DNA from: an uncultured Elusimicrobia bacterium
GTDB lineage: Bacteria > Elusimicrobiota > Elusimicrobia > Elusimicrobiales > UBA9959
Direction of reading: 5' to 3'
DNA: 56,809 nt
NCBI GenBank assembly: GCA_903889965.1
Contig: CAISZM010000049.1
Span: 1 to 56,809, forward strand
In this document: positions 5,491 to 56,790 of the stretch, piece by piece
How positions within the stretch are numbered: position 1 is the first letter of the stretch
Layout of the letters: each line of letters begins with the position of its first letter
Made by a program: the position numbers and the translations under genes
Notes under the pieces: model-generated
Databases searched by the model: none
The model's input: the letters and a program-made list of their open reading frames with translations, nothing else
Told to the model about the DNA's origin: nothing

Positions 5491-5525
5491 CCGGGCCGCG
5501 AAAGTGCCGGGGCCTGAGTCTGACC

Positions 5526-5551
5526 ACCGCGCGTACGCCGCGGTTTTTTTG
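5526..5551 (+). terminator. intrinsic terminator after the histidine kinase
   Basis: ACCGCG pairs with CGCGGT around a 7-base loop and is followed by seven T. It separates the kinase from the AT-rich glycosyltransferase pair. Confidence 0.8.
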
Positions 5552-5701
5552 CGTTCTCCGTCCGGCGCCGGGCGGTTTCACCTCCCCGGAAACCGGGGGC
5601 TGCGGGAGAAAGCCGCGGAATGGATCTCTCCTGAAAAAGGTGAATAAGAACACTCAAAGGCCTGGGGCCGGGTGCGTACAAAGATGATAGAGGATAATGC
5701 G

Positions 5702-7704: not shown

Positions 7705-7908
7705 TCCCGTCAGAAGCGGGTCGGCAGCTGGTTGGATACTGTCTGATTTTCCCTTTCAGCCCGCCAGTGCATGTCTTTTGACCTTTTGCGGACCGTTTTG
7801 CCGCACTAGCGCCCTGAATGTGCCTATTCTACGCCGGGCTTGTATGCCATTGGTAAATTAAGTATAAATATAGATGGTGTACGGCGGGACGCACGGGCGT
7901 AAACACAT

Positions 7909-9054
7909 ATGGAAAGCAAAATTTTAGTGGTAGACGACGACGCGCACCTGCGCGAGACGCTTCGCGACCTCCTGGAGATGGAGGGTTACAAGGTTTTCGA
8001 GGCCGGTTCCGGGGCCGAGGCCATGCGGATGGTGGTCTCGGATTTTTTTCACGTCATATTGATGGATTTTAACCTTACCGACAAGACCGGCATAGAGGTC
8101 ATCAAGGATATCCGCAAGCTGAACACCGACAGCCAGATACTGATGATGACCGCCCACGCTTCGCTCGATACGGCGGTGAAGGCCATACAGGAGTCCGTCT
8201 ACGACTTCCTGATAAAACCCGTGGATTTCAACTACCTGCGCCGGGCCATCAAGAAGGCCGAAGAGAAGCTTTACCTCGAGCAGGAAAATAAGCGCCTCAT
8301 AGACATGCTGAAGCACAATAACGAGGAGCTGGACCGCCTGAACGGCATGAAATCCAAGTTCATGTCCATGGCTTCGCACGACCTGTCCAACTCTCTGATG
8401 ACGCTGCAGATAAGTTTCGAGATGCTGTCCGCCACCCTGAAGCCCTCCGACGATCAGAAGAAAAAGATGGACTTCATCAACGCCAGCATAAACCAGATCT
8501 CCCGGCTCATAGGCGACCTTGTGGACTGGGCGTCCATAGAGCAGGGCAAGTTCCGCCTCGAGAAGAACCACTTCGAGATGGATAAGATGGTGGAGGAGAT
8601 ACTGGTGGGGCCCAGGGCCCGCGCGCAGCAGAAGAACATAGAGATCTCCGCCCAGTTCGCGCCCGGCCTCAAGATGGTCTGCGCCGACAAGCGCCGCATC
8701 GGCCAGGTCCTTATGAACCTGCTCGAGAACGCCATACGCCACACTCAGCGCGGCGGCAAGATAACTATTTTCGTAAGCCCGGTGGAGGACTCGGTCTGCG
8801 TGTCCGTCAAGGACAACGGCGAAGGTATAGACCCGGAAGTCCTTCCTAAGCTCGGCCAGAGCTTCTACCAGCCCGTAGGCGGTAAGGCGCCTCACGGCCG
8901 CCTGGGCCTGGGCCTGTCCATTTCCAAGGAGATCGTGCAGAGTCACGACGGTAAGATAATAGTTGAGAGCGAAGGCGTGGGCAAGGGTTCAGCCTTCAAG
9001 TTCGTGATCCCCTTCGCCAAGGAACCGCCCCCGCCGGCGGCGCCGAAGGGCTGA
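7909..9054 (+). CDS. cytosolic receiver-histidine kinase hybrid
   Basis: 381 residues, no membrane segment. N-terminal receiver: acidic residues D9-D11, phosphoacceptor D53 (VILMDFNLT), switch T81 and K103 (IKPVDF). A coiled-coil linker (about 112-150) leads to a HisKA domain with H157 in MASHDLSNSL, then an ATPase domain with N box LLENAIRHTQ, G1 DNGEGIDP, and G2 GRLGLGLSI. A Pro/Ala tail closes it. The receiver-first order means the kinase is probably controlled by phosphorylation or by an upstream kinase. No Shine-Dalgarno is visible before the ATG. The NarL regulator 31 bases downstream is its likely partner. Confidence 0.93.
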   Translation: MESKILVVDDDAHLRETLRDLLEMEGYKVFEAGSGAEAMRMVVSDFFHVILMDFNLTDKTGIEVIKDIRKLNTDSQILMMTAHASLDTAVKAIQESVYDFLIKPVDFNYLRRAIKKAEEKLYLEQENKRLIDMLKHNNEELDRLNGMKSKFMSMASHDLSNSLMTLQISFEMLSATLKPSDDQKKKMDFINASINQISRLIGDLVDWASIEQGKFRLEKNHFEMDKMVEEILVGPRARAQQKNIEISAQFAPGLKMVCADKRRIGQVLMNLLENAIRHTQRGGKITIFVSPVEDSVCVSVKDNGEGIDPEVLPKLGQSFYQPVGGKAPHGRLGLGLSISKEIVQSHDGKIIVESEGVGKGSAFKFVIPFAKEPPPPAAPKG

Positions 9055-13504: not shown

Positions 13505-14623
13505 ATGCGCCGACTTTTGCCGTTTATCCTTTTTCTTGTCTCGGGCTGCGGCGGGAATTCGGCGGACCCGCGGGAAATCGAGAATATATTCAACAAACAC
13601 GGCTGGTCGGCGTCCCCCGGGCCGGTGGCCCGGGTTTTTTCCGGGACGGGCTCACTTCGCTCCATTGACGCCTATGCGGTAGTGTCGGGCCCCGGCCTAC
13701 GCCCGGAACGCGATTACCCGGCGCCCCTCAAGGCCGGGGCCGGCTTAACCCTGTGGGAAACCGCCGGAGGTTTTGCCGTTGTGAAGGTGTTCCCCGGCTC
13801 GCCAGCGGCGGCCGCCGGGCTTAAGGCCGGGGATATACTGACTAAAGTGGACGGCAAGCCGGCGGCGGGGATCACTGCCGCCGCCCGGAACGCTTTTTTT
13901 TACGGGCAGAAAGGAGGAGAGTTCTCGTTCACGGGCAGCAGGAAGGACGGTTCCGCTATTTCAGGTTTTCTTAAACGGGATTTAGGGGCTATGCCCGCTG
14001 TATGGGGTTTCCTTGTCCCGGGGGAAAGGACGGCCTACCTGCGCATAGCCTCTTTTTCGGATAAAACAGCGGAGGCCGTTAAAGCGGAGCTCACGGATCT
14101 GGCGGCCTCGGGCGCCGCCGCAGTCATACTGGACCTGCGCCATAATTACGGCGGTTCGCTGGACGGGGCGGCCGGAACACTGGGGCTGTTCTCCCCGGGG
14201 CCCGGGGCGCTCTTCAGGACGGTATCTGCGCGGGCGGGTTACGTCAGGGAGTACTCAGCCAAAAAAACGGGCCCTTACCCGGGTATTAAGCTGGCGGTGC
14301 TCATCGATCACGGTTCCGTCTCAAGGGCCGAAATTTTCGCGGCGTCCCTGCGCGAGGCGGGCCGCGCGTTCACCGCCGGCGGTCCTACCGCGGGGAATGT
14401 CTCCATTACTAAGACCTTCAGGCTCACAAAAGGCGGAACCCTGCGTCTTACCGTGGCCAGGCTTGTAACCCCGGCAGGGAAAGACCTGGACGGGAGAGGC
14501 CTCGCTCCTGACCTGCCCGTTAAGGACCTGCCTGGGGGGAGATACGCCTTCTCCAACGATTTCCCTCCGCCGCTGGCGAGCGGGGACCCCGTTATAGGCG
14601 CGGCGCTGGCAAAGCTGCGGTAG
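13505..14623 (+). CDS. lipoprotein PDZ-S41-type protease homologue, catalytic Lys missing
   Basis: 372 residues from an ATG with a GAGGAGG site. The signal ends in a lipobox (LVSGC), so the protein should be lipid-anchored. A PDZ domain is near 85-155 (GGFAVVKVFPGSPAAAAGLK, GDILTKVDGKP). The S41/C-terminal-processing-protease core follows: TAYLRIASF, VILDLRHNYGGS, and DHGSVSRAEIFAAS with the nucleophile at S273. In this family the general-base Lys lies 25 residues later in a GKG motif; here that position is N298 in GGPTAGNVSITK. Activity may be lost or use another residue. It is the last gene of the pseudopilus cluster and could process or bind its products. Confidence 0.8.
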   Translation: MRRLLPFILFLVSGCGGNSADPREIENIFNKHGWSASPGPVARVFSGTGSLRSIDAYAVVSGPGLRPERDYPAPLKAGAGLTLWETAGGFAVVKVFPGSPAAAAGLKAGDILTKVDGKPAAGITAAARNAFFYGQKGGEFSFTGSRKDGSAISGFLKRDLGAMPAVWGFLVPGERTAYLRIASFSDKTAEAVKAELTDLAASGAAAVILDLRHNYGGSLDGAAGTLGLFSPGPGALFRTVSARAGYVREYSAKKTGPYPGIKLAVLIDHGSVSRAEIFAASLREAGRAFTAGGPTAGNVSITKTFRLTKGGTLRLTVARLVTPAGKDLDGRGLAPDLPVKDLPGGRYAFSNDFPPPLASGDPVIGAALAKLR

Positions 14624-14840
14624 GGCCGCGCTGCCTGGATCCCGCCGGCTCTTTTGTAACCCGAAAAATCCCTTTTCACCTTTATCCTGCCCCGCGGTCC
14701 CGGTCCCCGCGTCCGCGGGCTTAAATAGCCTGTTAACATTTGTGTAACTAAATGGAAACGGGGTTTTCCTAGAATATAGAAGGCAGAGAACAGCATAAAG
14801 CTGCCCTGAGAGACAGAAAGCACGAGACCGGGTGAACTAT

Positions 14841-17006
14841 ATGGACGAAATGGATAATAAGAACGTACAGCAGGGCATGCCGCCCGCGCCGCCCGCCATA
14901 TTCAGGCCCAGCCCGCCTCAGCAGGTCCAGCCGGCAGCGGATATCGCCGCCGAGGAGGCCGTCAGGATCAAAGAGGAAAAGGGCAGGCTGGAAAATAAAA
15001 TTTCGGATATGGAGAAGCTTCTGTCGCAGGAGAAGGAACGCGCACTGCTCGCGACTCTCAAAAATCAGCAGGACGAGGCCCTTTCGTCCCGCGTCGAATC
15101 CTCTCTGAAGGACATACAGGACAAGATGCGTCGCGACAGGCGCGACCACGAGGTTGAGGAAGAGAGGCTCCTGCTTAAAGGCAAGATAAAGGAACTCGAA
15201 ACCCGCCTGGCCCAGGAACGCGAAACCTGGATGCAGACGCTCAAGGAACAGATGTCGGATCGCGAGACCCAGGGGCGCGACGTGGAGGGGCATTTTGTCC
15301 ACCGCCTCCAGGAAATGGAGCGCCGCTGGCTCGACGAAAAGGCCCAGTGGCAGAAAGAGATCTCCTCGCGGGAGGACACAATCCGCTCGCTCCAATCGAC
15401 CGCCGAAAAGCTGCGTGAACTGGAAGACGAATTCCGCAGGGTCTCCCTCGAAAAAGCCATGATGGAAAGGGATGCCTCGAAGCTTAAGGACGAGGTGGCC
15501 CGCGCCGAGCGCGAAAAAGCCTCCATAGAGTCCTATATAAAGATAATCCCCGATAAGGAGCGCGAACTCGCAGGCCTGAAAGCCGATAACGCGATGCTGC
15601 GCGGCCGCGAGGAGATGGCCCGCGCGGAGGCCCGGCACCAGGAGGAAAAGAGCAATTATGAGCAGGAAAAGCTGCAGAAAGAGATAGGGCGGCTGCAGGC
15701 GGAGATCGGCAGCATTGCCGACCGCAAGAATACCGAGAAGAGCGAGGAGGTCCGGAGACTCCAGCACGGTTTTGACATCCAGATGCAGGATAAGGAAAAG
15801 GCCATAGCCGACCTTTCCGGGGAAAAAGTGCGCGCCATTTCGGAACTGATAAAGGTAAGGAGCTTCGTTTCCAGGGTGCAGGCTATCAACGCCGCGCTGG
15901 ACAAAGAGCGCGGGCAGCTGCGCCTTGAGAAAATGCAGCTGGCCCAGAACATGGCGGCGCAGCTGGAGGAAATGCGCCGCCTGAAGCAGGAGATGGACGG
16001 TCTGAAGGCGGTCCACCAGGCGGAACTGACCAGGATAAAGAACGGTTACGGAGCGGAGGTGGCCCGCAAGCACGCCGAAGAGGTGGCGGAGATGGTGCGC
16101 TCGCACCAGGAAGAGCTCTCGAGCCTGTCTATCACCCATCAGCAGGATCTCGCTAACTCCACATCCGTCCACCAGGCCGAAGTGGCGCGGCTGCTCAGGC
16201 TGCGCCAGGAAGACGCCGCAAGGTCCGCCGCGGCACTGCAGGGGGAGATAGCCAAGATAGCGGCCGAACGCCAGGCCGAGTTCGACGAAAAAGCTTCGCA
16301 GCTGCGTGCCAAGCTGGAGGCCGAGGTCGAAGCGGAAAAGAACGCGATGCGCGGCCAGTTGGAAGAGGAATACGAACGCCGCCTCAAGACTTCCGGCGCG
16401 GATAAAGACGCCATGCAGGAAGCCTCAGCAGCGTTCGAGCGCGAGAAGCTGAAGATCACCGCGGCCGCCGCGGCCGAAAGGTCCGAAATGGCGGCCAGGA
16501 TAAAAGAATACGAGGCCCGCCTGGATAAAGCTGAAAACGAGGCCAAGAGGCAGGAACTGATGGCCGCAGCGATAGCTTCCCAGAAAGAGGACGCGGAGAG
16601 GGCAGCCGCGGCCGCCGCGGCGGACGCGGCCGGAGCGCGCGGCCAGCACGCCGCCTTCGAGGCCCGGAAAACTGCGCTGGAAGGCGAGCTCTCGATGCTG
16701 GCCAAGGACTTCAAGGAAGAAAGCGCGAACCGCGCCCGGTTCGAGTCGGAGCAGCAGTTCCTCAAGCAGGCTATACAGAAGATGGAAGAGCAGGCCAAGG
16801 CGACGGCCGAGGCGCTGGAAGCCGAACGCATCAACCTGGCGAGCCTTCAGGCGGCCTCCGAAGAGCAGCGCGCCATGGATTCGTCCCGCATAGCCGAAAT
16901 AAGCGCCGAGCTGGACAGCTATAAAGCCATAGAGAAGTCCTTCACCGACAGGCTCAAGTGGGCTATAACGGGCAAAAAGGATGAAAACTCCGAGGACAAC
17001 CCTTAA
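14841..17006 (+). CDS. long coiled-coil protein
   Basis: About 721 residues. Start options are the GTG at 14832, ATG 14841 and ATG 14850; 14841 is chosen without a decisive ribosome site. After a Pro/Gln-rich head (about 10-45: PPAPPAIFRPSPPQQ) the protein is almost entirely charged heptad-type helix, rich in Glu, Lys, Arg, Ala and Gln, from about 45 to 700. The Ala-rich part (about 530-610) includes AAAAERSE and AAAAAADAAG runs. No enzyme motif or membrane segment is seen. A structural, scaffold or chromosome/cell-pole role is possible. The FlbD/SwrD-like gene follows 57 bases later on the same strand. Confidence 0.75.
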   Translation: MDEMDNKNVQQGMPPAPPAIFRPSPPQQVQPAADIAAEEAVRIKEEKGRLENKISDMEKLLSQEKERALLATLKNQQDEALSSRVESSLKDIQDKMRRDRRDHEVEEERLLLKGKIKELETRLAQERETWMQTLKEQMSDRETQGRDVEGHFVHRLQEMERRWLDEKAQWQKEISSREDTIRSLQSTAEKLRELEDEFRRVSLEKAMMERDASKLKDEVARAEREKASIESYIKIIPDKERELAGLKADNAMLRGREEMARAEARHQEEKSNYEQEKLQKEIGRLQAEIGSIADRKNTEKSEEVRRLQHGFDIQMQDKEKAIADLSGEKVRAISELIKVRSFVSRVQAINAALDKERGQLRLEKMQLAQNMAAQLEEMRRLKQEMDGLKAVHQAELTRIKNGYGAEVARKHAEEVAEMVRSHQEELSSLSITHQQDLANSTSVHQAEVARLLRLRQEDAARSAAALQGEIAKIAAERQAEFDEKASQLRAKLEAEVEAEKNAMRGQLEEEYERRLKTSGADKDAMQEASAAFEREKLKITAAAAAERSEMAARIKEYEARLDKAENEAKRQELMAAAIASQKEDAERAAAAAAADAAGARGQHAAFEARKTALEGELSMLAKDFKEESANRARFESEQQFLKQAIQKMEEQAKATAEALEAERINLASLQAASEEQRAMDSSRIAEISAELDSYKAIEKSFTDRLKWAITGKKDENSEDNP

Positions 17007-17063
17007 GGGTTTACCCCGAGGCATAATTGCCGCCGGGGCCTTCCCCCGGCGCGGGACGGACAA

Positions 17064-17294
17064 ATGATAAAACTTGAAAAACTCAACGGGTCTATGGTCG
17101 TGGTGAACGCCGAGCTTATAGAAAGCCTGGAGGCTGCCCCGGACACGGTTATCAACCTGGCAACGGGAAACCAGGTAGTGGTCAGGGACAGCGTGGACGC
17201 CGTTATCGCTAAGGTGGTGGCGTATAAAAAGCAGGTTTACGCGGAGCGCAGGTGCGTAAATCCGATAGAAGGACTGGGAAATAAGCCGGGGTGA
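17064..17294 (+). CDS. swrD: FlbD/SwrD-family small protein
   Basis: 76 residues matching the family pattern: MIKLEKLNGSMVVVNAELIE, then APDTVINLATGNQVVVRDSV with the conserved PDT, and an amphipathic helix (DAVIAKVVAYKKQV). In Bacillus this protein raises flagellar motor torque, and its gene normally lies between flagellar genes (flgE-fliL region). Here no flagellar gene is in sight; the partner is the coiled-coil gene upstream. It may be a remnant or work with another motility or envelope machine. A terminator follows within 55 bases. Confidence 0.85.
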   Translation: MIKLEKLNGSMVVVNAELIESLEAAPDTVINLATGNQVVVRDSVDAVIAKVVAYKKQVYAERRCVNPIEGLGNKPG

Positions 17295-17344
17295 CGGGCG
17301 CGCCTGATACAGGCCTGTGCGGCGCAATGGCCGCGTTGTTGTTT

Positions 17345-17374
17345 CGGACCGGGAAACCGGTCCGTTGTTTTATT
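17345..17374 (+). terminator. intrinsic terminator with GAAA tetraloop
   Basis: CGGACCGG, loop GAAA, CCGGTCCG: a perfect 8-bp stem followed by TTGTTTTATTTT. Confidence 0.9.
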
Positions 17375-17407
17375 TTCCGCCGCCCCGCCGGCTTCCGCCA
17401 AAAATAC

Positions 17408-17413
17408 TAAAAT
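17408..17413 (+). promoter_or_regulatory. -10 element giving a leaderless mnmA mRNA
   Basis: TAAAAT ends six bases before the ATG at 17420, which places the expected transcription start on the A of ATG. No Shine-Dalgarno is present and the strong terminator lies just upstream. Confidence 0.5.
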
Positions 17414-17419
17414 GTATCC

Positions 17420-18490
17420 ATGAGGAAAGTCGTTGTCGCGATGTCCGGCGGCGTTGATTCGTCGGTAACCGCCGCCCTGCTGAAAAACGAGGGTTTCGAA
17501 GTGATCGGCGTAACCCTGCGTCTTTTTTCCGAGCGTAAGGGCGCCGTAAAGTGCTGCGGAGGCGACGACAGCGCCGCCAAAGCCCGGGCCTCCGCCCAGG
17601 CCTTGGGCATACGCCACTATTTCAAGAGCGCGCAAGGGCTCTTCTCCAAAACCGTGATAGACAATTTCGTCGGCGGATACCTGGCCGGCTCCACCCCGAA
17701 CCCTTGCGTGGAATGCAACCGGCACCTGAAGTTCTCCTATCTTTTCGATCTTGCTCTTTCGCTGGGCGCTGAAGCCCTGGCTACGGGTCATTATGCCGTC
17801 ATTAAAAAAAGCGCCGGGGAGTACGGGCTTTACCGGGGCGTCGACCCGCTGAAAGATCAGAGCTATTTCCTGTACTGCCTCAAAAAAGAGCAGCTGGGCC
17901 GCGTGCTCTTCCCGCTTGGCGGGCTGACCAAGAAAGAGGTGCGCCGCCTGGCCGCGGAATTTTCCCTTCCCTCCGCCAGCGAGCCGGAATCGAACGATAT
18001 CTGTTTTGTCACCGAGGGGAATTACGGCTCCTATCTTAAAAAATCGGCCGGCATAAAACCGCGGCCGGGTTATATAGTGGACGCCTCCGGCAAAAGGATA
18101 GGACGCCACGAGGGTTTTTTTAACTTCACGGTGGGCCAGCGCCGCGGCACCGGGGTTTACGGCGGCGCGAGGCTCTACGTCACGGAGATAAGGCCGGCAT
18201 CGAACGAAGTGGTGCTGGGACCGCTGGCCGCGGCCCAGTGCGGGGGGTTCGGCGTAAGCGGGCTTAACTGGCTCGTCGAGCCCCCGCGCGGTTTATTCGA
18301 CTCCGCGGTCCAGATACGTTATCACCACAAGCCGGCGGCTTGCCGCGTGGAAGCCATGCCGGGCGGCCGCGCGGCAGTGACGCTTAATGCGCCGCAATTC
18401 GCCGTTGCGCCCGGGCAGTCGGCCGTGTTCTTCGCCGGGGACAGGGTGCTGGGCGGCGGCATCATCGAAAATGTAAAGCGTAAAACGTAA
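17420..18490 (+). CDS. mnmA: tRNA-specific 2-thiouridylase MnmA
   Basis: 356 residues, normal for the family. It adds sulfur to U34 of tRNA-Lys, -Glu and -Gln, using ATP to activate the base and persulfide sulfur. The PP-loop is MSGGVDSSV (8-16). The catalytic Cys pair is C96 (NPCVECN, with C99) and C195 (SNDICF). The GHYA motif, KDQSYFLY, and the C-terminal barrel (FTVGQRRGTGV) are all present. An extra CC pair at 45-46 lies in a short loop. It is followed 78 bases later by ddl on the same strand. Confidence 0.97.
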   Translation: MRKVVVAMSGGVDSSVTAALLKNEGFEVIGVTLRLFSERKGAVKCCGGDDSAAKARASAQALGIRHYFKSAQGLFSKTVIDNFVGGYLAGSTPNPCVECNRHLKFSYLFDLALSLGAEALATGHYAVIKKSAGEYGLYRGVDPLKDQSYFLYCLKKEQLGRVLFPLGGLTKKEVRRLAAEFSLPSASEPESNDICFVTEGNYGSYLKKSAGIKPRPGYIVDASGKRIGRHEGFFNFTVGQRRGTGVYGGARLYVTEIRPASNEVVLGPLAAAQCGGFGVSGLNWLVEPPRGLFDSAVQIRYHHKPAACRVEAMPGGRAAVTLNAPQFAVAPGQSAVFFAGDRVLGGGIIENVKRKT

Positions 18491-47839: not shown

Positions 47840-47856
47840 GTAAGTCGTGGTTCAGC

Positions 47857-47925
47857 GCGCCCGTGGTGAAATGGATATCACAGGAGCCTCCGAAGCTTCT
47901 AGTGCAGGTTCGATTCCTGCCGGGC
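47857..47925 (+). tRNA. tRNA-Arg(CCG), left copy with disrupted 3' end (attL)
   Basis: Identical to the complete copy at 56716 up to CGGGC, then AAGACC instead of GCACCA. The first two acceptor pairs and the CCA are lost, so it is probably not functional. Anticodon loop CTCCGAA gives anticodon CCG. Confidence 0.8.
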
Positions 47926-47936
47926 AAGACCGTTAC

Positions 47937-47973
47937 ACGTCGAGAAAACCTCAAAAATCCACACTTTAAAAGG
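47937..47973. repeat. integrase arm-type inverted repeat, left
   Basis: ACGTCGAGAAAACCTCAAAA and following bases match, inverted, the region 56672-56707 (ACGTCGAGAAACCACAAAAA on its minus strand, continuing to CTTTAAAA). Each lies just inside one att repeat. Confidence 0.7.
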
Positions 47974-48045
47974 CACTGTTAAAGCCCGAAAACGGCTTGC
48001 AATAACAGGAGCCTTGCGAATTTCCGCTTCATGGAAGGTTTTTCC

Positions 48046-49011
48046 ATGGGCGCCGTAACAATTCAAAGCTTAAAGCCTGAGGCGCTGTCCTGGGAGACAG
48101 CCTTCCGGCTCTTTAATTTGCGCTGCAGGGCGCAGAACCTCAGCGCCGGTACGTGCAGGAACTACGAGCAGACCTTCCGCCTGTTATTGCACGCCCTGGC
48201 CGCGCTGGACAGCCCCAGGCCGGCCGAGCTGACCGTCCACCACCTGCGGGCCTGTATGGAGGGCTGGAAGGCCTCCGGGCTGGCCTCAGAGACGCTGGAT
48301 AACCGCTTCCGCAACCTCCGGGCCTTCTTTAACTTCCTGCTGAAGGACGGGCTTATAATCGCAAACCCGGCCGCCGGGCTGGAACGGCCCCGGGTTGAGC
48401 GCCGGCTTATCAGGCCCTTTACCAAGGAACAGTTTGCCGCCACAATCGCGCAGATCCGCGCGAACCCGCTGGGCCTGCGGGACAAGGCCCTGCTGCTCCT
48501 GCTGGCTGATACCGGCCTCCGCATAAGCGAGGCGCTAGGGCTTAATGTGGGCGACCTCGACCTGGCCGGCAATACTGCGATAGTCATGGGCAAGGGCCGC
48601 AAGGAGCGCCGGACCTTCTGGGGGGAGACCGCGCGCCGCGCCCTGCTGGCCTGGCTGAAGGTGCGCCCGGAGGCGAAGGCCGGAGATCCTGTTTTTTGTA
48701 ACCAGTTTGGCGGCCGGCTTGTGGCGGAGGTTTTTAGCCACCGCGTAAAAGAATACACGCGGCGCGCCGGCATAGCGGCCAACCGCCTCAGCTGCCATGC
48801 CTTGCGCCATTTCTGGGCCTGCCAGTTCCTGAAGAACACTGGCGACATCGTGACGCTCTCCCGCCTACTAGGGCACACCACGCTCGCCATGTCGAAGCGC
48901 TACCTAAACCTGACGGATGATGAGGTTCTGGCGAAAGCCCGGCAGGTCGGCAGCGTGTTGGACCGCATGGGCCCACTACCGGGGGAGCGCCGGCGCGTCC
49001 GCCTTAAGTAA
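48046..49011 (+). CDS. tyrosine recombinase (integrase)
   Basis: 321 residues from the ATG at 48046, where AAGG lies about 9 bases upstream; an ATG at 48031 adds five residues without a good site. A SAM-like core-binding domain (about 15-95) precedes the catalytic domain with Arg (DTGLRISEALGL), H-x-x-R (CHALRHFWA), the later His (LLGHTTLAMSKRYL) and the nucleophile Tyr in RYLNL. All active-site residues are present. Its position beside attL and its XerC/D-like size indicate it catalyses integration at the tRNA-Arg gene. Confidence 0.95.
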   Translation: MGAVTIQSLKPEALSWETAFRLFNLRCRAQNLSAGTCRNYEQTFRLLLHALAALDSPRPAELTVHHLRACMEGWKASGLASETLDNRFRNLRAFFNFLLKDGLIIANPAAGLERPRVERRLIRPFTKEQFAATIAQIRANPLGLRDKALLLLLADTGLRISEALGLNVGDLDLAGNTAIVMGKGRKERRTFWGETARRALLAWLKVRPEAKAGDPVFCNQFGGRLVAEVFSHRVKEYTRRAGIAANRLSCHALRHFWACQFLKNTGDIVTLSRLLGHTTLAMSKRYLNLTDDEVLAKARQVGSVLDRMGPLPGERRRVRLK

Positions 49012-49138
49012 CCGCCATCCTCGACGATGCACAACTTACCCTTGGCCTCATCTGTTTATTAAGGTATAATTAAGTATAGATAAGTATATACAAGCAACAA
49101 TGCTATTTAGGACAGGGCAGGGCAAGGAGAGGATAGTT

Positions 49139-49321
49139 ATGACACCATTGCATAAGGAGTTCTATAACGTAAAGGAGCTGGCCGAAGTACTCGGGGTAAA
49201 CCCCATGACCATTCGGCGCCTGGAGCAGCGCGGGGAGTTGAAGTCTCACAGTATAGGCCGGGTCAAAAGATTCCGTCGCGAGGACATTGAGGCGTATTTG
49301 AGTAAAGCCAAGGAAAAGTAG
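49139..49321 (+). CDS. excisionase-like HTH protein
   Basis: 60 residues from the ATG at 49139 with AAGGAGAGG upstream. A MerR/excisionase-type winged helix is evident: YNVKELAEVLGVNPMTIRRL, EQRGELKSHSIGRVKRFRRE, DIEAYL. Such HTH_17 proteins act as recombination directionality factors or repressors. It is adjacent to the integrase, as usual for this role. Confidence 0.88.
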   Translation: MTPLHKEFYNVKELAEVLGVNPMTIRRLEQRGELKSHSIGRVKRFRREDIEAYLSKAKEK

Positions 49322-49365
49322 TGTTATGAAGAATGAATAAATAAGCGGGTTACGGAGGGAAAACC

Positions 49366-49788
49366 ATGAACACCACAATAACAAAAAGCAAAACGCAGAC
49401 GAGATCAAAGACGGAAAAGCGCCTGGCAATAGAGCGCGTGGTCAAGTTGTCTCAGGACGGCAACCCTGCCATTGATTATGTGATAGCGGGCAGGCTAAAT
49501 CAGCAGGTCCCACTGGAGACACATCATGGCTGCGATTACTACATAGTGAACAACAACGATTTTGCACCTTTGGTCGCAAAGGATAGCCTGCTGCGCGTTT
49601 ACACGAACATAAGTGGAGATTGTAACGATGGATATCCGCAATGCCCCCGCCTTGTGGCCCGCAACAGCCGGCTGGAGATTTGCACTTATGAGGCCAGCAA
49701 GGGCGCACAGGTTGTTGGCATGGTGGAGGAAATCAGGCGCTGGACAGTTGGGAATCCAATTATCCCGTCCTATAACCGGGAATCATAG
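49366..49788 (+). CDS. unknown element protein, weakly S24-like
   Basis: 140 residues with a CGGAGG site. The basic start (KSKTQTRSKTEKRLAIERVV) precedes a beta-rich part with NNDFAPLVAKDSLLRVYTN and a final QVVGMVEEIRRW, which loosely recall the fold of LexA-type S24 peptidases without a clear Ser/Lys dyad. A terminator follows at 49830. A regulator role is possible but the resemblance is weak. Confidence 0.5.
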   Translation: MNTTITKSKTQTRSKTEKRLAIERVVKLSQDGNPAIDYVIAGRLNQQVPLETHHGCDYYIVNNNDFAPLVAKDSLLRVYTNISGDCNDGYPQCPRLVARNSRLEICTYEASKGAQVVGMVEEIRRWTVGNPIIPSYNRES

Positions 49789-49829
49789 TAGAATATCGCC
49801 AACACAGCGTCCGCCAGCGCTTACAGATC

Positions 49830-49866
49830 GGGCCGTTCTCCTGGCGGAGGGCGGCCCCCTGTTTTT
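49830..49866 (+). terminator. intrinsic terminator
   Basis: GGGCCG/CGGCCC stem followed by CCTGTTTTT; it ends the integrase-side transcription unit. Confidence 0.7.
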
Positions 49867-49969
49867 AGATAACTGGGGGGGATATGGGGTGTGTTTTCTA
49901 CAGTAAAAACATATCAAGACCGCACCCCGGCTCTGTACATGCGGTGCCAGAATAAACATAAGGGGTTTT

Positions 49970-50713
49970 ATGAAGCAAAGTGAAACGGAAAGAAAACATG
50001 CCCCGATTGCCAACGGGCTTTATCAGCGGCATGCAGAGGTCTATCTAGCCCCCGTGAAAGCTCCCGACCGCAAGTTGACATATATAATGAATGTTGCGGC
50101 GTTCGAGAAGTTTGTTGAAGAGATAAAAAAAATAGCTACCCGCGCCGAAATAGTTTTTAAATATTGTTCCCATCGTGAGCTGAATACTTCCATGGGCGCG
50201 AAAGTGAAATATAAATATGAGATCGGGCTGGGTTACAATGAACAGGGGCGGATAAACTTTGCTGAATTTGCGCATGCAGTTGACCCTAAAAACACGGCAG
50301 CCCGCTTAGCATTTATTCAAGATTATGAGGAACTACGTGAGCGTTATAGGCATTTTTTTAGTCTTGTGACAATACAGCACGACGGGCACGAATATTTTAA
50401 CCTCGAATTTTATCCTCGCAAGAAAGGCCCTCGGCAACAGCTTTTTACCTCTTTTGTAAATGCTCTGTTCACTATACATGGGATAGTGCGTCTTAAAATA
50501 GGCAGGGATACAAAGACTGCCGCTTTAAGCCCGGAAGAGTGGGAGATAATAAAGAAACTGCGTAGTAAGAGTAGAGGTACTGAGAGTGGCAGCAATAGGT
50601 TTTGTGCTGAGGAAATCCGCCTGCGCAGGAAAACCGGCCCAAAGAAAGAGCCCGCCCTGCGGCAGGCCATTTACCGGGAAGAACGCCGCAGAAAAAAAAC
50701 CAGCCAGTTTTAG
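49970..50713 (+). CDS. unknown basic element protein
   Basis: 247 residues, AAGGGG site before the ATG. The N-terminal part (about 10-170) is a mixed alpha/beta region (YLAPVKAPDRKLTYIMNVAA, YEIGLGYNEQGRINFAEFAH). The C-terminal 60 residues are strongly basic (RLRRKTGPKKEPALRQAIYR), suggesting nucleic-acid binding. No family recognised. AT-richer than the integrase. A GGGGCC hairpin follows near 50743-50767 but with few T. Confidence 0.55.
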   Translation: MKQSETERKHAPIANGLYQRHAEVYLAPVKAPDRKLTYIMNVAAFEKFVEEIKKIATRAEIVFKYCSHRELNTSMGAKVKYKYEIGLGYNEQGRINFAEFAHAVDPKNTAARLAFIQDYEELRERYRHFFSLVTIQHDGHEYFNLEFYPRKKGPRQQLFTSFVNALFTIHGIVRLKIGRDTKTAALSPEEWEIIKKLRSKSRGTESGSNRFCAEEIRLRRKTGPKKEPALRQAIYREERRRKKTSQF

Positions 50714-50847
50714 TCATCCTCAAGGAAAAATAAAACATATTTAGGGGCCTCTGTTATAGGGGCCCCTTATCTGTCAGAGGGGCATAATGGCCCTTCATGT
50801 AGACTGTTTCTGTAGCCAGGGAAAATACTTGGCAAGGAGGCAGAAAA

Positions 50848-51045
50848 ATGAAGGTTTCTATTCGTATAGCAGCGCAGGAGTTTGATATATCTGAGCGCAC
50901 GCTAGACAAGTGGGCTAAGAGTGGCCGTATTAAGTTTGAACGGAGCGCCGGCGGATGGCGGCTCTTTGATGTTGCCGAGATATCCAGAGTTAAAGCACAA
51001 GCAGCTGTCGCGCACGCGACCTGTCAAAACAAGACAAAACAATAA
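50848..51045 (+). CDS. small MerR-like HTH protein
   Basis: 65 residues with a strong AAGGAGG site. One helix-turn-helix (IRIAAQEFDISERTLDKWAK, SGRIKFERSAGGWRLFDVAE) is followed by a polar tail ending KTKQ. It is the first gene of the tape-measure unit and the likely local regulator. It starts 12 bases before the next gene. Confidence 0.75.
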   Translation: MKVSIRIAAQEFDISERTLDKWAKSGRIKFERSAGGWRLFDVAEISRVKAQAAVAHATCQNKTKQ

Positions 51046-51057
51046 CGGAGGAAAAAA

Positions 51058-51456
51058 ATGAACGACATAGAAACTATTAAAGCAATAAATCAGGACGCGA
51101 TTCTGGTAAAGCTGTCTGCAGGGGACTACACAGTAAACCCCCTCACTGTGCGGCGCTGTTCTTCGCTGGTCGTATTACTTAAAGAGGTTCAGGGAGACCT
51201 GGCGAAGCTTAGTGACATTGGCAGCCCCGACTTCCAGCAGGCCGCAACGAATGCGCTGATGGCCGCGGGCGAGAACATGCCGCGCGCCCTCGCCCTGTTT
51301 GCAGGAAATGAAGAGTTAGGCAAACTCGAAGACATCAGCCTGCTAGACCTATCGGCCGTCGTGTTGGCCGGAGCGAAAGTGAACAAGGCCTCTTCTTTGT
51401 TTTCAAGTTTTCGCCAGGCGATGGAAACATATAACGGGAAAGCGGACCAGAAATAG
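51058..51456 (+). CDS. small protein upstream of the tape measure, possible tail chaperone
   Basis: 132 residues with a GGAGG site. Helical protein: TIKAINQDAILVKLSAGDYT, RRCSSLVVLLKEVQGDLAKL, QQAATNALMAAGENMPRALA. Phage tail assembly chaperones lie just before the tape-measure gene and have this size, which is the only ground for the suggestion. No frameshift extension is obvious. Confidence 0.5.
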   Translation: MNDIETIKAINQDAILVKLSAGDYTVNPLTVRRCSSLVVLLKEVQGDLAKLSDIGSPDFQQAATNALMAAGENMPRALALFAGNEELGKLEDISLLDLSAVVLAGAKVNKASSLFSSFRQAMETYNGKADQK

Positions 51457-51584
51457 AAGACGCGCGCCCTCGCTTGGGTAAACTAGACGCAACTGCGGGC
51501 TGTGAGCTTTCAGTCGCCTTAAGCCCCAAGCCGAGGGATGCGCGGACTGAGGAGAATGGGTTTAAAACCCGGAGGTAAATAAAA

Positions 51585-53471
51585 ATGTCTGAGCCGTTAT
51601 CTTTCTTAATCCGCAGTGCCTTCGATGCCTCGGGTATAAACGCAGCAGCGGCCAGCGTCAAAAACATCGACGCCCAGATAAATAAAGTTTCCCGCGGCTT
51701 CAGTCAGTTCATGTCGTTAATGGGCGCCGGGGGGATTGGGGCCTCGCTGTTCGCTTTTTCCGTTAAAGCCGTAAAAGCCTTTGCTGAGGAAGAGCGTGCC
51801 ATCGATCTGCGCAATAAAGCCCTCCAGAATCTAGGCATAACCAATAAAGCCGCAGGCAAGGAGCTGGATGATTTGGCTGAGAGCCTGGAAAAGACTACCC
51901 ACGCCCAGAAGGAGGAAATAATTACAGCAGAGACCTCACTTATACAGCGCGGTCTTTGGGGCGCAGAGTTAAAAAAAGCTATCCCCACCGTATTGGACCT
52001 CGCAACAAAAACAGGGTCGCTGTCTAGCGCCACCGAATTAGTAGGAAAAGCCTTCCAAGGCACTACCAAAGGCCTTAATACCGTCGGCGTGATGATTGCT
52101 GCCAATACACCCAAGACACAGGTATATGCCGAAACTATGCGCCAGTTGAACGATATGTTCGGCGGCGCCGCGCAGGCGGAAATGCAGAATACAGCCGGAA
52201 AAATGGAGTTGCTTAGCAAGCGCTTCGAAGACCTAACCAAACGAGCTGGAGAACTTCTCTCCGGACCCGCCACTGGGGTTATAGGTTGGTTTGAAAAACT
52301 TGCCACGGTTCTAGAGGCGTTCACAGAAGACGGGAAAGCAACAAAGATAGATTTAATGCACGAGAGCCTCGGACGGTTGGACAAGAAACTATCCGACATG
52401 TACGCCAAAAACGCTAGTGGATCCTGGTTTAAATATACGGACGTTGAAATTCAGGCCACTATCGATAAAATTAAAAGTCTTACTGCCGAGATAAATTCCC
52501 TGACCGGAAGCACCAAGTCCACGGGCAGTTCCGTAGCCACCCGCAAGCCGGTTGTTGCAGATAACGATACCGAGCGATTAAAGGCGCAGAAGCTGGCGCA
52601 ATCCGAGGCTATAAAAAAAGACAAGGAATACCTGAAGGAAAGCGAAAAGATAACCGAGCAAATTACGGAAATAGAAAGTTTTGCGCTCACTGAGCGCGGC
52701 CAGATGTACACCCGGTATTTCGGGGATTTGGAAATGCAGCGGCGTAAGAATCTGGCGCTGGAAGGCTCCACTTCGAGACAGTTGGAGACAAATAATAAAA
52801 AAATGTTAGTGGACCTTGAGCACGACTACACAGAGGCCGGGCATACATTCGCGGGAGGCTTTAAGCAAGGCCTCGATGCTATGGAACAGAGTTCCCAGGA
52901 TTGGAAAGGCGCCTGGGGAGAATGTATGAACAGCGCCATCGGTCCGGCTAAAACGGCATTTACCGATTTTTTCGCTTCCACCAGCAGCGACTTCTTAAAT
53001 ATTGAGGCGCTAGCGAAGAAGATGTTCCAAAACATTTTAAACTCTTTCCTGGACATGGTCGCGCAGATGATGGCTAAAAAGGCAGTTCTGGCGCTATTTA
53101 CCGGCGGCGGTAGCCTTCTGGGTGGGCTACTAGGCAGTTGGGCCAGTGGCGGCTACACCGGTGACGGAGACCCCAACGAGGTGGCCGGCGTGGTCCACCG
53201 CGGGGAGTTTGTTCTGAGTGCTGAGACCACGAAAGCCCTACGCTCGGGATCTTCACTATATAACGTCTCTACCACTTCTTCGGCAGTAAACAATTCCGGA
53301 GTTGATTTTACGCAAAACAATACTTTTAACATATCCGGAGATGCTGCCAATATCGGCACGCTGTGCGAGAAGATAGCGGAAGCCACGCGCAACGGACTGC
53401 GGCAGGCCGGTGAGATGGCGAATGTCATCACCAAGGTCGGCACCAAAAAAGCGGGGAATACCGCGCTATGA
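51585..53471 (+). CDS. phage tail tape-measure protein
   Basis: 628 residues, GGAGG site. N-terminal TMP start (FLIRSAFDASGINAAAASVK, IDAQINKVSRGFSQFMSLMG), a helical core with RALGITNKAAG-like words and LVGKAFQGTTKGLNTVGVMI, a coiled region (about 320-400), then the lambda-like C-terminus: FLDMVAQMMAKKAVLALF, GGGSLLGGLLGSWASGGYTG and VAGVVHRGEFVLSAETT. TMPs set tail length and aid DNA injection. At about 628 residues it would make only a short tail. No other tail gene is recognisable, which is unusual. The next gene overlaps by four bases. Confidence 0.88.
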   Translation: MSEPLSFLIRSAFDASGINAAAASVKNIDAQINKVSRGFSQFMSLMGAGGIGASLFAFSVKAVKAFAEEERAIDLRNKALQNLGITNKAAGKELDDLAESLEKTTHAQKEEIITAETSLIQRGLWGAELKKAIPTVLDLATKTGSLSSATELVGKAFQGTTKGLNTVGVMIAANTPKTQVYAETMRQLNDMFGGAAQAEMQNTAGKMELLSKRFEDLTKRAGELLSGPATGVIGWFEKLATVLEAFTEDGKATKIDLMHESLGRLDKKLSDMYAKNASGSWFKYTDVEIQATIDKIKSLTAEINSLTGSTKSTGSSVATRKPVVADNDTERLKAQKLAQSEAIKKDKEYLKESEKITEQITEIESFALTERGQMYTRYFGDLEMQRRKNLALEGSTSRQLETNNKKMLVDLEHDYTEAGHTFAGGFKQGLDAMEQSSQDWKGAWGECMNSAIGPAKTAFTDFFASTSSDFLNIEALAKKMFQNILNSFLDMVAQMMAKKAVLALFTGGGSLLGGLLGSWASGGYTGDGDPNEVAGVVHRGEFVLSAETTKALRSGSSLYNVSTTSSAVNNSGVDFTQNNTFNISGDAANIGTLCEKIAEATRNGLRQAGEMANVITKVGTKKAGNTAL

Positions 53472-54043
53472 AAAACACCCACCTACACCCCGGAGCAAGG
53501 CTAGAGGAGCGGCTGGGCATTGGCTGGACTGGTCCAGACGAAGAGCTATTCGAACGGGCCTATAGTTTTAAAGCATGGGCTGACAGATACCCGTGGGGGG
53601 CGTTTCGCTGGCGGGAGAAACTACGCCAAGCAAAATACAGCCCGCTCAGGGGGCAACTATGGGCGGCCATTAAGGATATAATGGAAGGCCGCGAAGAAAT
53701 CGCGGTGCTGGTCCACCCTGCCGCCCCTGCCCGGCCGTCCACCGCGCGCGCAGTTGCTGGCGCGCCTCCCCGCTTGATACTAAACCAGACTCCGGCCTTA
53801 AAACAGTTGCAGGCGAAGGCGTCCGAATTTCCTCGGGAATATGAGGATTGGAAAACAAAGAACATCACGGCCGCGGCGCTCGCTGAGGTGAAAACACTGG
53901 CGCCAGTCCTCGCGGATGAAGCGCTTAACCTCGAGGCCCGCGCAAAGCAAAACATCGACCCGAGCGCCGTAGACGCGCTTTTAAAACGCGCTGCCGGCAT
54001 CTGGGCCGCGCTACTCAATATCAAGGAGCCCGCGCTATGGTGA
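53468..54043 (+). CDS. unknown protein coupled to the tape measure
   Basis: 191 residues, start ATGA overlapping the tape-measure stop. N-terminal part Trp/Tyr-rich (WADRYPWGAFRWREKLRQAK), a Pro/Ala linker (HPAAPARPSTARAVAGAPPR) and a helical C-terminus (LAEVKTLAPVLADEALNLEA). Family not recognised; it overlaps the next gene by seven bases, so all three are coupled. Confidence 0.65.
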   Translation: MKNTHLHPGARLEERLGIGWTGPDEELFERAYSFKAWADRYPWGAFRWREKLRQAKYSPLRGQLWAAIKDIMEGREEIAVLVHPAAPARPSTARAVAGAPPRLILNQTPALKQLQAKASEFPREYEDWKTKNITAAALAEVKTLAPVLADEALNLEARAKQNIDPSAVDALLKRAAGIWAALLNIKEPALW

Positions 54044-55182
54044 AAATAGACGATTCCAACTTCATCGAGCGATACACCACCTGGGCGGATAGCTTCACTG
54101 ACGCTCCGGTACAGTTCCACCGCTTTGTGGGCTATTGGGCGTTGTCTACGCTACTCGGCCGCCGCGTTTATATGCACCTCGGGGATGAGTGGCTGTTCCC
54201 AAACCTTTGGCTTGTGGTCCTCGCCCCTTCCAGCTTCTTTCGGAAGAGCACAGCGCTGGGCATTGGGGCCCGCCTGGTAGAGTCAATCAATCCGGAGATT
54301 CGGCTGCCTGCTGAATGGTCCCAAGAGTGCTTCATCTCTACGATGACCAAAGAGCCGCACGGCTTCATGACCTGCTACGAGTTCAAGAGCCTGCTGGCCC
54401 AGCTGCAGAAGGATTACAATTTTGGGGCGCAAAGCCTACTGACGGAACTTTACGATTGCCCGCGCGAGTACACCCGCAAGAAAGGCACGACTGAAATAAA
54501 AGAGTTCCGCATCGAGAAGCCGTACTTGACAATCCTGGGCGCGTCGACCATCGACTGGCTTATAAGTTCTGTTCAGGGTGGAGACATCGCAGGCGGCTTC
54601 TTGGCGCGCTTCCTGTTCGTGTCGGCTGATAAGAAGGACAAAATCATGGCGATACAGCCAAAGGCGGACGAATCGGGAAAGCTTCTCGTAAAAAAGGCGC
54701 TGGAGGCCGCTCTGAATGTTGAGGGCGAGATGGAATATAGCTCGGAAGCCAGGCAGCATTATGAGGTATGGTATCACCGCTTTGTTACCGAGGCCGAGAC
54801 AGCTCCGGAAGGTGTACGAGCGTTCTTCCCGCGCCTGACCGCCTACGCGCACAAGTTCGCCATGTTGGAAGCCGTCTTAAATGGCCACCACCCGGAGGTT
54901 ACGCTGGATGACTGCAGGCGGGCCTGTATGATGGCGGATAACTTTGCGGCCGAGATTCGGAAGCTGGGCAAGGAGAGTCTTGGGAAAAGCAAGTTTGATC
55001 ACTACAGGCTCAAGATAATAAGGGCTATCACTAAGAAGCCTGGCATTGAGCACAGCCGCCTGTTGCGGAATCTCGGCCTGCCGGCAAAGGTCTTTAAGGA
55101 CGTGGTCGAAACGCTTAAACAGTCCGAGGAAATTGATATTCGGGATGGCGCTTATTACCCGGTTGAGACTGGCTCGGATTGA
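54037..55182 (+). CDS. DUF3987-like phage/plasmid ATPase-related protein
   Basis: 381 residues. VQFHRFVGYWALSTLLGRRV, WLVVLAPSSFFRKSTALGIG, TEL(Y)DCPREYTRKKGT and GGDIAGGFLARFLFV follow the plan of DUF3987 proteins, which resemble primase-helicases of phages and plasmids. The Walker A position reads APSSFFRKST, lacking the usual Gly residues, so nucleotide binding may be altered. The C-terminus (about 320-375) looks like a winged helix (IKKPGIEHSRLLRNLGLPAK-type words). A replication role is supported by the repeats just downstream. Confidence 0.75.
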   Translation: MVKIDDSNFIERYTTWADSFTDAPVQFHRFVGYWALSTLLGRRVYMHLGDEWLFPNLWLVVLAPSSFFRKSTALGIGARLVESINPEIRLPAEWSQECFISTMTKEPHGFMTCYEFKSLLAQLQKDYNFGAQSLLTELYDCPREYTRKKGTTEIKEFRIEKPYLTILGASTIDWLISSVQGGDIAGGFLARFLFVSADKKDKIMAIQPKADESGKLLVKKALEAALNVEGEMEYSSEARQHYEVWYHRFVTEAETAPEGVRAFFPRLTAYAHKFAMLEAVLNGHHPEVTLDDCRRACMMADNFAAEIRKLGKESLGKSKFDHYRLKIIRAITKKPGIEHSRLLRNLGLPAKVFKDVVETLKQSEEIDIRDGAYYPVETGSD

Positions 55183-55366
55183 TTCGGTCGTTCGGGCCGA
55201 ACTTTGGCTGGGTTTCCCTAAATTCGGCCCTAATTCGGTAGTCGTTTCCGAACGCATGTTTCCCTATGAGAAATGCTTTAAATTCGGTAATTAGTTATAT
55301 CTCTATAGAAAAAGCCCATTTTAGGGGCTTTTCCGTATACCAGGGGAGGGTACCGAATCACCGAAT
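55182..55366. repeat. ATTCGG repeat cluster, iteron-like
   Basis: ATTCGG occurs at 55182, 55222, 55233 and 55282 in direct orientation and inverted (CCGAAT) at 55353 and 55361. It follows the DUF3987-like gene directly. Together they may be a replication origin or operator. No gene is seen from 55183 to 55615. Confidence 0.6.
55309..55333 (+). terminator. intrinsic terminator inside the repeat region
   Basis: AAAAGCCC/GGGCTTTT hairpin followed by CC; bidirectional in form. Confidence 0.6.
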
Positions 55367-55580
55367 CGGGAGCTTAAAAGTGCAGCTCAGCCTTGCCGGG
55401 TTGGAGTTGGCGAAAGTGCGGCCCACATAAAGCTATGCTCCCCCCCGGGAGGGGTACCTCCAATCCCTGGGACCTATACGAATGGAAACCGCGCCCCGCC
55501 TTCGCGCGCGTGAGGGCGATATAGCAAAAAGGGGCGTCTTACATCATGACATCATATCGGAAAAAGTATTGCGAACAATA

Positions 55581-55608
55581 TTGAGGTCTTGGTATTTTTT
55601 TGTAATAT
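55581..55608 (+). promoter_or_regulatory. promoter of the exonuclease-BRCT gene
   Basis: TTGAGG at 55581-55586 and TAATAT at 55603-55608 with a 16-base spacer. The start would fall on or next to the ATG at 55616, suggesting leaderless mRNA. Confidence 0.55.
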
Positions 55609-55615
55609 GTTTGGG

Positions 55616-56479
55616 ATGACCACGCAAGAGCCCACAGATTTCACCTCAGTAGATGTAGAGACCGCCAATGCCGATTTGTCGAGTATTTGCCAGGTCGGCA
55701 TTGTGACGTTTGAGAACGGCTGCCTTAAAGAGAAATGGGAGACGTTAATAAACCCAGAAGATGAATTTGACGGAATAAATATTTCAATTCACGGTATCAC
55801 TGAAGAGAAAGTTAAGGATGCCCCGACTTTCCCGGCAATATACGCGGAAATTAATGCACGTCTCTCCGGCCGGGTTGTAGTAACCCACACGCATTTTGAT
55901 GTCAGCGCCCTTGCCATGGCGGGGGAAAAACATGGTCTGTCTCGGCTTGAGTGCACCTGGCTGGATACGGCGAAAGTTGTCCGCCGTGCATGGCCGGAGT
56001 TCGCGCAGAGCGGCTATGGGTTAAAGCCTGTGGCGAAGAAGCTGGGGATAGTTTTCGGCCATCATAACGCGGCGGAGGACGCTAGGGCGGCCGGGGAGAT
56101 ACTTCTGCGGGCCATAGCGGAGACTTCTGTTCCCCTTGGCGGCTGGCTCGAACGGATCAAGCGGCCCATCAGCCCCGCGAACATCTCCCTGGAGGGAAAC
56201 CCGGAGGGACCGTTACATGGTGAAGTAATCGTTTTCACCGGCGCCCTCGCAATAACGCGGGTAGAGGTGGCCAGGCTTGCGGCCGACGCCGGCTGTACGG
56301 TCGCCCCGGGGGTAAACAACAAGACCACCCTCCTTGTGGTAGGCGACCAGGATATCCGCGCCTTAGCCGGACATGAGAAGAGTTCTAAGCACAGGAAGGC
56401 TGAGGACCTGATTTCGAAAGGGCAGCCTATCCGGATACTGCGGGAGACCGATTTTAAGTTCCTTATTAAAAATCCATAA
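55616..56479 (+). CDS. DnaQ-type 3'-5' exonuclease with BRCT domain
   Basis: 287 residues from the ATG at 55616 (alternatives ATG 55607 and TTG 55589 lie within the promoter). The exonuclease has D-x-E (SVDVETAN), THTHFDVSALAMAG and H-N-A-A-E-D-A at the third motif (HHNAAEDARA). A BRCT domain (about 200-280) shows GEVIVFTGALAITRVEVARL, AADAGCTVAPGVNNKTTLLV. Such fusions occur as DNA polymerase III epsilon-like nucleases in phages and chromosomes. Its likely task is processing or proofreading element DNA, or acting in conflict with other phages. Confidence 0.9.
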   Translation: MTTQEPTDFTSVDVETANADLSSICQVGIVTFENGCLKEKWETLINPEDEFDGINISIHGITEEKVKDAPTFPAIYAEINARLSGRVVVTHTHFDVSALAMAGEKHGLSRLECTWLDTAKVVRRAWPEFAQSGYGLKPVAKKLGIVFGHHNAAEDARAAGEILLRAIAETSVPLGGWLERIKRPISPANISLEGNPEGPLHGEVIVFTGALAITRVEVARLAADAGCTVAPGVNNKTTLLVVGDQDIRALAGHEKSSKHRKAEDLISKGQPIRILRETDFKFLIKNP

Positions 56480-56671
56480 AGGAAACCTTGCGCCGCTCCG
56501 TGCGCCATGCTAAAATAAAAGTGCGCTCAGTTGCTTTCCCGGAGGGCTTTCTATTTAAGGGCCTTGTGCAGGAACCCTCGGGTAACTGAGCGCCACAGGG
56601 CCCTTAGCTATTTGAAGCGGAACCGCAAAAGTGCCTTTTACGATGACAGGAGCCTGTGAAAAGTTGTCGCT

Positions 56672-56707
56672 GATTTTAAAGGCATGGTTTTTGTGGTTTC
56701 TCGACGT
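56672..56707. repeat. integrase arm-type inverted repeat, right
   Basis: Inverted match to 47937-47973. The word AAAAGTGC also recurs near 56516, 56626 and 56708. A GCGCTCAGTT/AACTGAGCGC stem-loop lies at about 56523-56592. Confidence 0.65.
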
Positions 56708-56715
56708 AAAAGTGC

Positions 56716-56790
56716 GCGCCCGTGGTGAAATGGATATCACAGGAGCCTCCGAAGCTTCTAGTGCAGGTTCGATTCCTGCCGGGCGCACCA
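56716..56790 (+). tRNA. tRNA-Arg(CCG), complete copy (attR)
   Basis: Acceptor GCGCCCG/CGGGCGC, D-arm GTGA/TCAC, anticodon arm GGAGC-CTCCGAA-GCTTC, T-arm GCAGG-TTCGATT-CCTGC, discriminator A and encoded CCA. It decodes CGG. It lies on the element's far side from the native -10 element. Confidence 0.95.

Follow-up and report, generated by a model that had tools for sequence, protein, structure and literature searches.

The element and its integration site

The window analysed here is a stretch of 56,809 nt from an uncultured Elusimicrobiota bacterium. Its right end harbors an element of ~8.9 kb (47855-56784) that is bounded by two direct repeats of 71 bp, identical at 71 of 71 positions and each located inside a predicted tRNA-Arg(CCG) gene (Table 1). 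The left tRNA copy retains its native upstream region and lacks two acceptor pairs and the CCA (CGGGCAAG), its 3' end now reading CGGGCAAGACC; the right copy is complete (CGGGCGCACCA). The respective Rfam scores are 48.8 bits and 65.0 bits. We note that the damaged tRNA (47855-47931) is the one on the side of the native promoter, with the intact copy (56716-56790) at the opposite end of the insert. In the congeners (24 of 24 loci), one unoccupied tRNA-Arg(CCG) site comes after alaS, with a single match per genome, and in the closest congeners the sequence downstream of the tRNA is CACCAAATTCTG, the same as in the window 3' of the right copy. The left flank and the letters beyond the right copy are therefore chromosome, and what lies between them is the insert. 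Since the congeners have identical tRNA letters, the identity of the repeats alone is uninformative on the age of the insertion. The right copy is probably the working tRNA and would be expressed from within the element, and the host may depend on element sequence for expression of tRNA-Arg(CCG) after insertion. The contig stops 25 bp past the right repeat; another contig of the same MAG (C74) begins at this tRNA, with 94 bases identical. The assembly branches here, as it could in a population where occupied and empty sites coexist, although this is no proof of such a mixture.

Table 1. Features of the element, with coordinates in the window.
Feature	Coordinates	Strand	Evidence or remark
attL, 71-bp repeat in tRNA-Arg(CCG)	47855..47925	+	upstream flank (alaS) native; element sequence in place of the 3' end
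Tyrosine recombinase (integrase), 326 aa	48031..49011	+	PF00589 1e-33
HTH protein, excisionase/regulator-like, 73 aa	49100..49321	+	PF12728 4e-13, phrog_66 8e-11
140-aa protein	49366..49788	+	no Pfam or PHROGs family match
247-aa orphan protein	49970..50713	+	no convincing relative
MerR-like HTH protein, 65 aa	50848..51045	+	PF00376 6e-7
Predicted tail assembly chaperone (TAC), G-type, 132 aa	51058..51456	+	homologs directly 5' of TMP
-1 frame after TAC, IEDA start, ~42 open codons, no T domain	51453..51581	+	
Tape-measure protein (TMP), full-length, 628 aa	51585..53471	+	phrog_24 8e-17; GGAGG ribosome-binding site
191-aa protein (p191)	53468..54043	+	C-terminal part similar to the end of a sister-element protein with a DnaB N domain
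DUF3987 replication protein, phage primase/helicase-like	54037..55182	+	PF13148 1e-12, phrog_14296 5e-25
DnaQ-like exonuclease + BRCT	55589..56479	+	PF00929 5e-18, PF00533 2e-6, phrog_192 8e-43
attR, second 71-bp copy	56714..56784	+	in intact tRNA-Arg(CCG) 56716-56790

Ten genes lie inside the element, every frame open, and cover 83% of it; the 17% non-coding sequence includes a gap of 406 nt 5' of the exonuclease gene. Overlaps of 4-7 nt join the TMP gene to the p191 gene (ATGA) and the p191 gene to the DUF3987 gene, and clear GGAGG-type ribosome-binding sites are found at the TAC gene, the TMP gene and several others. The start codon of the exonuclease-BRCT gene is uncertain, with the ATG at 55616 as a possible alternative. 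A first-pass annotation of the locus had described perfect 71-bp att repeats and open, coupled frames, together with genes for an integrase, an excisionase-like protein, a TMP, a DUF3987-like protein and an exonuclease-BRCT protein; the repeats and frames are borne out, and the gene assignments are backed by Pfam and PHROGs. The 247-aa protein has no convincing relative in phages, in the IMG/VR scan or in the genomes of the phylum, and its single-sequence structure model is uninformative (pLDDT 37). For the DUF3987 protein, a single-sequence scan of IMG/VR gave no match, in contrast to profile scans, and a profile search of the PDB gave nothing relevant.

According to Pfam and PHROGs, none of the ten proteins is encoded by a capsid, terminase, tail-tube or baseplate gene, the sole head- or terminase-type matches being weak HTH cross-matches to TerS families. 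The set of a complete prophage (terminase, portal, capsid, tail tube and lysis genes) is likewise absent from the element in these searches. What is found, an integrated element with recombination and replication genes and an incomplete virion gene set, corresponds to the general description of phage satellites. The first-pass annotation had also considered a tail-derived injection device, a reading we dropped because the element has no tube, sheath or baseplate gene.

Elsewhere in the window, positions 5001-8000 have a G+C content of 47-50% (vs ~60% around them) and constitute a possible second foreign region. Positions 14001-18000 show a strong AT skew (up to 0.37), possibly reflecting a long purine-rich coding stretch.

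The chaperone and tape-measure pair

The 132-aa protein upstream of the TMP has homologs (E 2e-4 to 5e-10) that lie immediately 5' of a TMP gene in phage-like loci from the taxonomic order of the host. Moreover, 12 of 13 aligned members of its family match phrog_1442 (tail assembly chaperone, best 8e-8), the element's own protein having no direct match. Its neighborhood and its family thus identify it as a predicted TAC, and the element as the carrier of a two-gene TAC-TMP cassette. Tail assembly chaperones are not virion components. The earlier statement that the element keeps a TMP and no other virion gene is therefore literally right, yet it had missed the TAC, and the TMP is not alone. The TAC gave no match in the phage collection and nothing relevant as a profile against the PDB, and its single-sequence structure model is too poor for use (pLDDT 46). 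For the TMP, tblastn against the phage collection gave no match, and neither did a single-sequence scan of IMG/VR, whereas profile scans of IMG/VR did give matches; no match to it is found in other genomes of the genus.

The nearest phage is a siphophage contig of 27.7 kb from IMG/VR (IMGVR_UViG_3300031885_000088, hereafter L116). It consists of genes for a capsid, a protease-like protein, connectors, an Ig-domain major tail protein, a TAC, a 600-aa TMP and distal tail proteins, the protease and connector calls being made by eye. The element's TMP matches that of L116 at 30% over 9-628 (E 1e-75); the match is collinear with both ends conserved. The C terminus of the element's TMP shows conservation down to the final residue. 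The two TACs share about 25% (blastp). Judged by these alignments, the pair is related to an Elusimicrobiota-type siphophage lineage. TAC and TMP are the sole genes common to the element and L116, the remaining 7.9 kb of the L116 contig included, and a tblastn search of both parts of that contig (E 0.01) gave a match for the TMP and for none of the other element proteins. Gene content thus argues that the element is not a shrunken copy of the L116 phage. With regard to a full-length prophage from which the element might have decayed, as raised in the first-pass annotation, this comparison covers the nearest phage as a contig that may be a fragment, so that genes absent from it are no proof for the whole phage, and unsampled phages exist.

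In lambda, the chaperone G acts jointly with a rarer -1 frameshift form, GT. The TMP is bound through the G part and the major tail protein through the T part, and the ratio of G to GT is crucial (PMC5009743). In 19 of 19 distinct loci used for comparison, each with a recognised TAC-TMP pair, the TAC is followed by a -1 frame in which a motif of the type ASFYGYTTEYILAQSPxWLLxA is conserved. The -1 frame of the element begins with IEDA, as in L116, but the spacer measures 128 nt vs 237, and a T domain is not found in the element with a profile built from twelve T sequences, filters off included. Matches of this profile in L036, L039 and L116 are not independent, as those sequences trained it; elsewhere, presence refers to the conserved motif itself. 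The absence of the T domain is most simply a derived loss, which can mean dependence on the GT of a helper, a dominant-negative design or decay.

A further tail locus is found in genomes of family f2 (L035-L039, L005-L021), which carry a capsid-tail cluster with very short TMPs of 218-290 aa (378-423 aa in two). Nearly every genome of genera g15-g19 has the cluster, and the same 650- and 500-aa genes flank it in L037 and L038, and at least partly in L039. It gives the impression of a gene-transfer-agent-like system with vertical inheritance.

Relatives in the phylum and a possible helper

The complete element, or its full gene order, is not found in any other of 341 genomes of the phylum, although parts of it recur: a clade of integrases next to tRNA genes, and the DUF3987 module in a second tRNA-flanked element. 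The first-pass annotation had proposed to look for the same gene order in relatives. The closest integrases (46-54%) belong to other Elusimicrobiota and each adjoins a tRNA gene, except for one at a distance of 1.5 kb (L079); integrases in IMG/VR reach 35% at most. Two of the related integrases lie in att-flanked elements of 7.8-8.7 kb with other replication or cargo genes. The first (L084, 2605-11406, genome G219) is an 8.7-kb tRNA-Gly element with Prim-Pol/D5, ankyrin-repeat proteins and an antirepressor-like protein called by eye, its att copies showing 96% identity over 80 bp. The second (L081, 329-8189, genome G185) is a 7.8-kb tRNA-Arg(GCG) element with a SocA/Panacea antitoxin-like gene and 50-bp identical att copies. 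In another family, the L079 integrase (genome G218) is accompanied by antirepressor-like and HigBA-like genes (by eye) at alaS-tRNA-Arg(CCG); the site may be an integration hotspot.

Relatives of the DUF3987 protein are found in genomes G232 (63%), G169 (38%) and G335 (34%), the conservation of 63% spanning families. In G232, one contig carries a tRNA-Gly and an integrase and another the DUF3987 gene and a tRNA-Gly (C185, C253), with an identical 85-bp repeat, from which we infer two ends of one sister element. It resembles the element described here in its integrase (42%), its DUF3987 protein, a p191-like C terminus and tRNA att repeats, and differs in its tRNA-Gly site and the other genes at its ends; its middle is not assembled, and a TMP is not found in the G232 genome. 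The C-terminal part of p191 matches the end of a G232 protein (in L031) that has a DnaB N domain (PF00772 2e-22) and is located 5' of DUF3987, hence p191 is probably a replication accessory. The last protein of the sister element (L031, 663-1388; ~192-241 aa) has no family match and resembles internal virion proteins by eye only. The G169 locus (L032, 7054-11884; L044) consists of an integrase, an excisionase-like protein, a TerL (phrog_979 2e-46), a TerS-like protein and DUF3987, and adjoins a tRNA-Ser; the terminase pair are its sole recognisable virion-related genes, and no second att copy was found there. Taken together, the elements in L084, L081, G232 and G169 speak for a loosely defined group of small elements in the phylum that combine a replication module with one borrowed module. 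At the G335 locus, no phage or satellite genes were recognised by eye. A contig of genome G089 was rejected as a second satellite: it holds a 245-aa N-terminal fragment of a TMP with tail-like neighbors, and looks like prophage debris.

A helper prophage in the host, another suggestion of the first-pass annotation, did not emerge: the host MAG (90% complete) has no match to the phrog_2 terminase or the HK97 capsid family. Outside a different family of the order, the L116-type capsid occurs in one distant genome, and in none of the host's family. A helper would have to come from outside the host, or be of a type that these probes miss.

Candidate roles and comparison with known systems

We put the probability at roughly 0.5 that this is a phage-satellite-like element whose own TAC-TMP pair enters or blocks the tail assembly of a helper, a takeover by analogy with PLE satellites; the element probably reshapes or sabotages the tails of another phage. 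A related siphophage would infect, and the element would excise and replicate. It would then make its own TMP, held soluble by its own G-type chaperone, on which the major tail protein of the helper, and probably also the helper's T-bearing chaperone, would polymerise. The product would be chimeric tails of ~90-95 nm (628 aa at ~0.15 nm per residue), which could favor tails usable by the element and either escape or impose control on the helper's tail assembly. For this reading speak the att repeats and the empty congener site; the TAC and full-length TMP with good ribosome-binding sites, the TMP being translationally coupled to the replication genes; a nearest phage with nothing but this pair in common; and, elsewhere in the phylum, the tRNA-associated integrase clade, the G232 sister element and the G169 element with DUF3987, integrase and excisionase-like genes. 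Against it stand the TAC without a T domain, the absence of helper-type genes from the host MAG with the probes used and of the L116-type capsid from the host's family, the lack of an identified packaging signal or packaging gene in the element, and the lack of a second complete element among the 341 genomes. A more specific version is doubtful: with a T-less chaperone and a full-length ruler, the element's TMP might be sheathed only with the helper's T-bearing chaperone, a built-in dependence that would divert helper tail protein and starve the helper's own tails.

Alternatively, the element could be what is left of a temperate phage or satellite, formerly larger, after the loss of most genes, the TAC-TMP pair being leftovers and the loss of the T domain early decay. 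The deleted T domain, the damaged left tRNA copy, the non-coding 17% with its 406-nt gap and the patchy distribution fit such a history. We nevertheless consider it unlikely, since 10 of 10 frames are open, the TMP and replication genes overlap in one direction, a TMP upstream of replication genes is an unusual prophage order, no further gene is shared with the nearest phage, and DUF3987 is conserved across families. The loss of the T domain weakens the earlier argument that simple decay would not readily leave all frames open.

Rather improbable in our estimate is a tail-assembly poison, that is, an anti-phage cargo and not a virion part, whereby the TMP and the T-less chaperone form unproductive complexes and compete with those of the helper, yielding tailless or dead-end particles. 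The T domain is lost here only, with TAC and TMP frames intact behind strong ribosome-binding sites, and the division of labor between G and T in lambda, with its crucial ratio (PMC5009743), is in line with such interference; satellites and prophages are known to defend by interference with tail assembly, via other proteins (PMC11364771; Rta, PMC12987554). However, less than a full-length TMP with a conserved C terminus would do for a poison, the pair has no match to PADLOC defence models, and none of the cited papers describes a defence by a dominant-negative TMP. An ordinary integrative element with TAC-TMP as inert cargo is very improbable: the genes that accompany related integrases do vary (L084 has Prim-Pol/D5 and ankyrin, L081 has SocA), but here the TMP is coupled to the replication operon by the ATGA overlap and has a specific chaperone.

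A satellite with its own tape measure, as the first-pass annotation had proposed, hence fits best and finds an experimental precedent in PLE (PMC12987554); a satellite lifestyle, a helper and chimeric tails are what we infer from the genes. In 2026, the control of tail assembly by a satellite was described for the first time, on the basis of experiments confined to Vibrio: all PLE satellites carry a tac-tmp pair, PLE11 places its TMP in virions with shorter tails, and transduction of PLE1 and PLE4 without tmp is down 96-99% (PMC12987554). The element resembles PLE1, PLE4 and PLE11 in being small and integrated, and in that a tac and a tmp of its own are the only tail genes it has. Both proteins are diverged from phage copies, with 20% each to those of ICP1 in PLE (PMC12987554) and 30% (TMP) and about 25% (TAC) to L116 here. 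It differs in its host (Elusimicrobiota, as judged by relatives from that phylum, not Vibrio cholerae), a tyrosine integrase (PF00589) at a tRNA gene, the DUF3987 module, a siphophage-type TAC-TMP pair and the missing T domain; furthermore, no baseplate-hub gene is recognised, and its helper is putative. The integrase of PLE1 is a large serine recombinase, and PLE satellites also have the nicking nuclease NixI and TcaP, which remodels capsids. The cf-PICIs, for which putative tmp genes are reported (PMC12987554, Extended Data Fig. 10), are likewise integrated satellites with a predicted tmp, and the element differs from them in having no capsid or packaging genes of its own. P4-like satellites differ by a P4-type primase-helicase in place of DUF3987, and no matches to Psu, Delta or Sid are found in the element (Pfam, PHROGs). 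L116, finally, shares the TAC and the full-length collinear TMP, but also possesses the T domain and genes for capsid, connectors, major tail protein and distal tail, and none of the other genes of the element.

No paper on satellites of Elusimicrobiota was found by title or abstract in the literature library searched. Finding a TAC-TMP pair in another phylum, on an element unrelated to PLE, would point to more than one origin of tail takeover. From the missing T domain follows a testable prediction on how a satellite separates ruler from recruiter. TMP-bearing satellites as such were already reported in 2026; new here are the phylum, the backbone, the siphophage type and the T-less chaperone.
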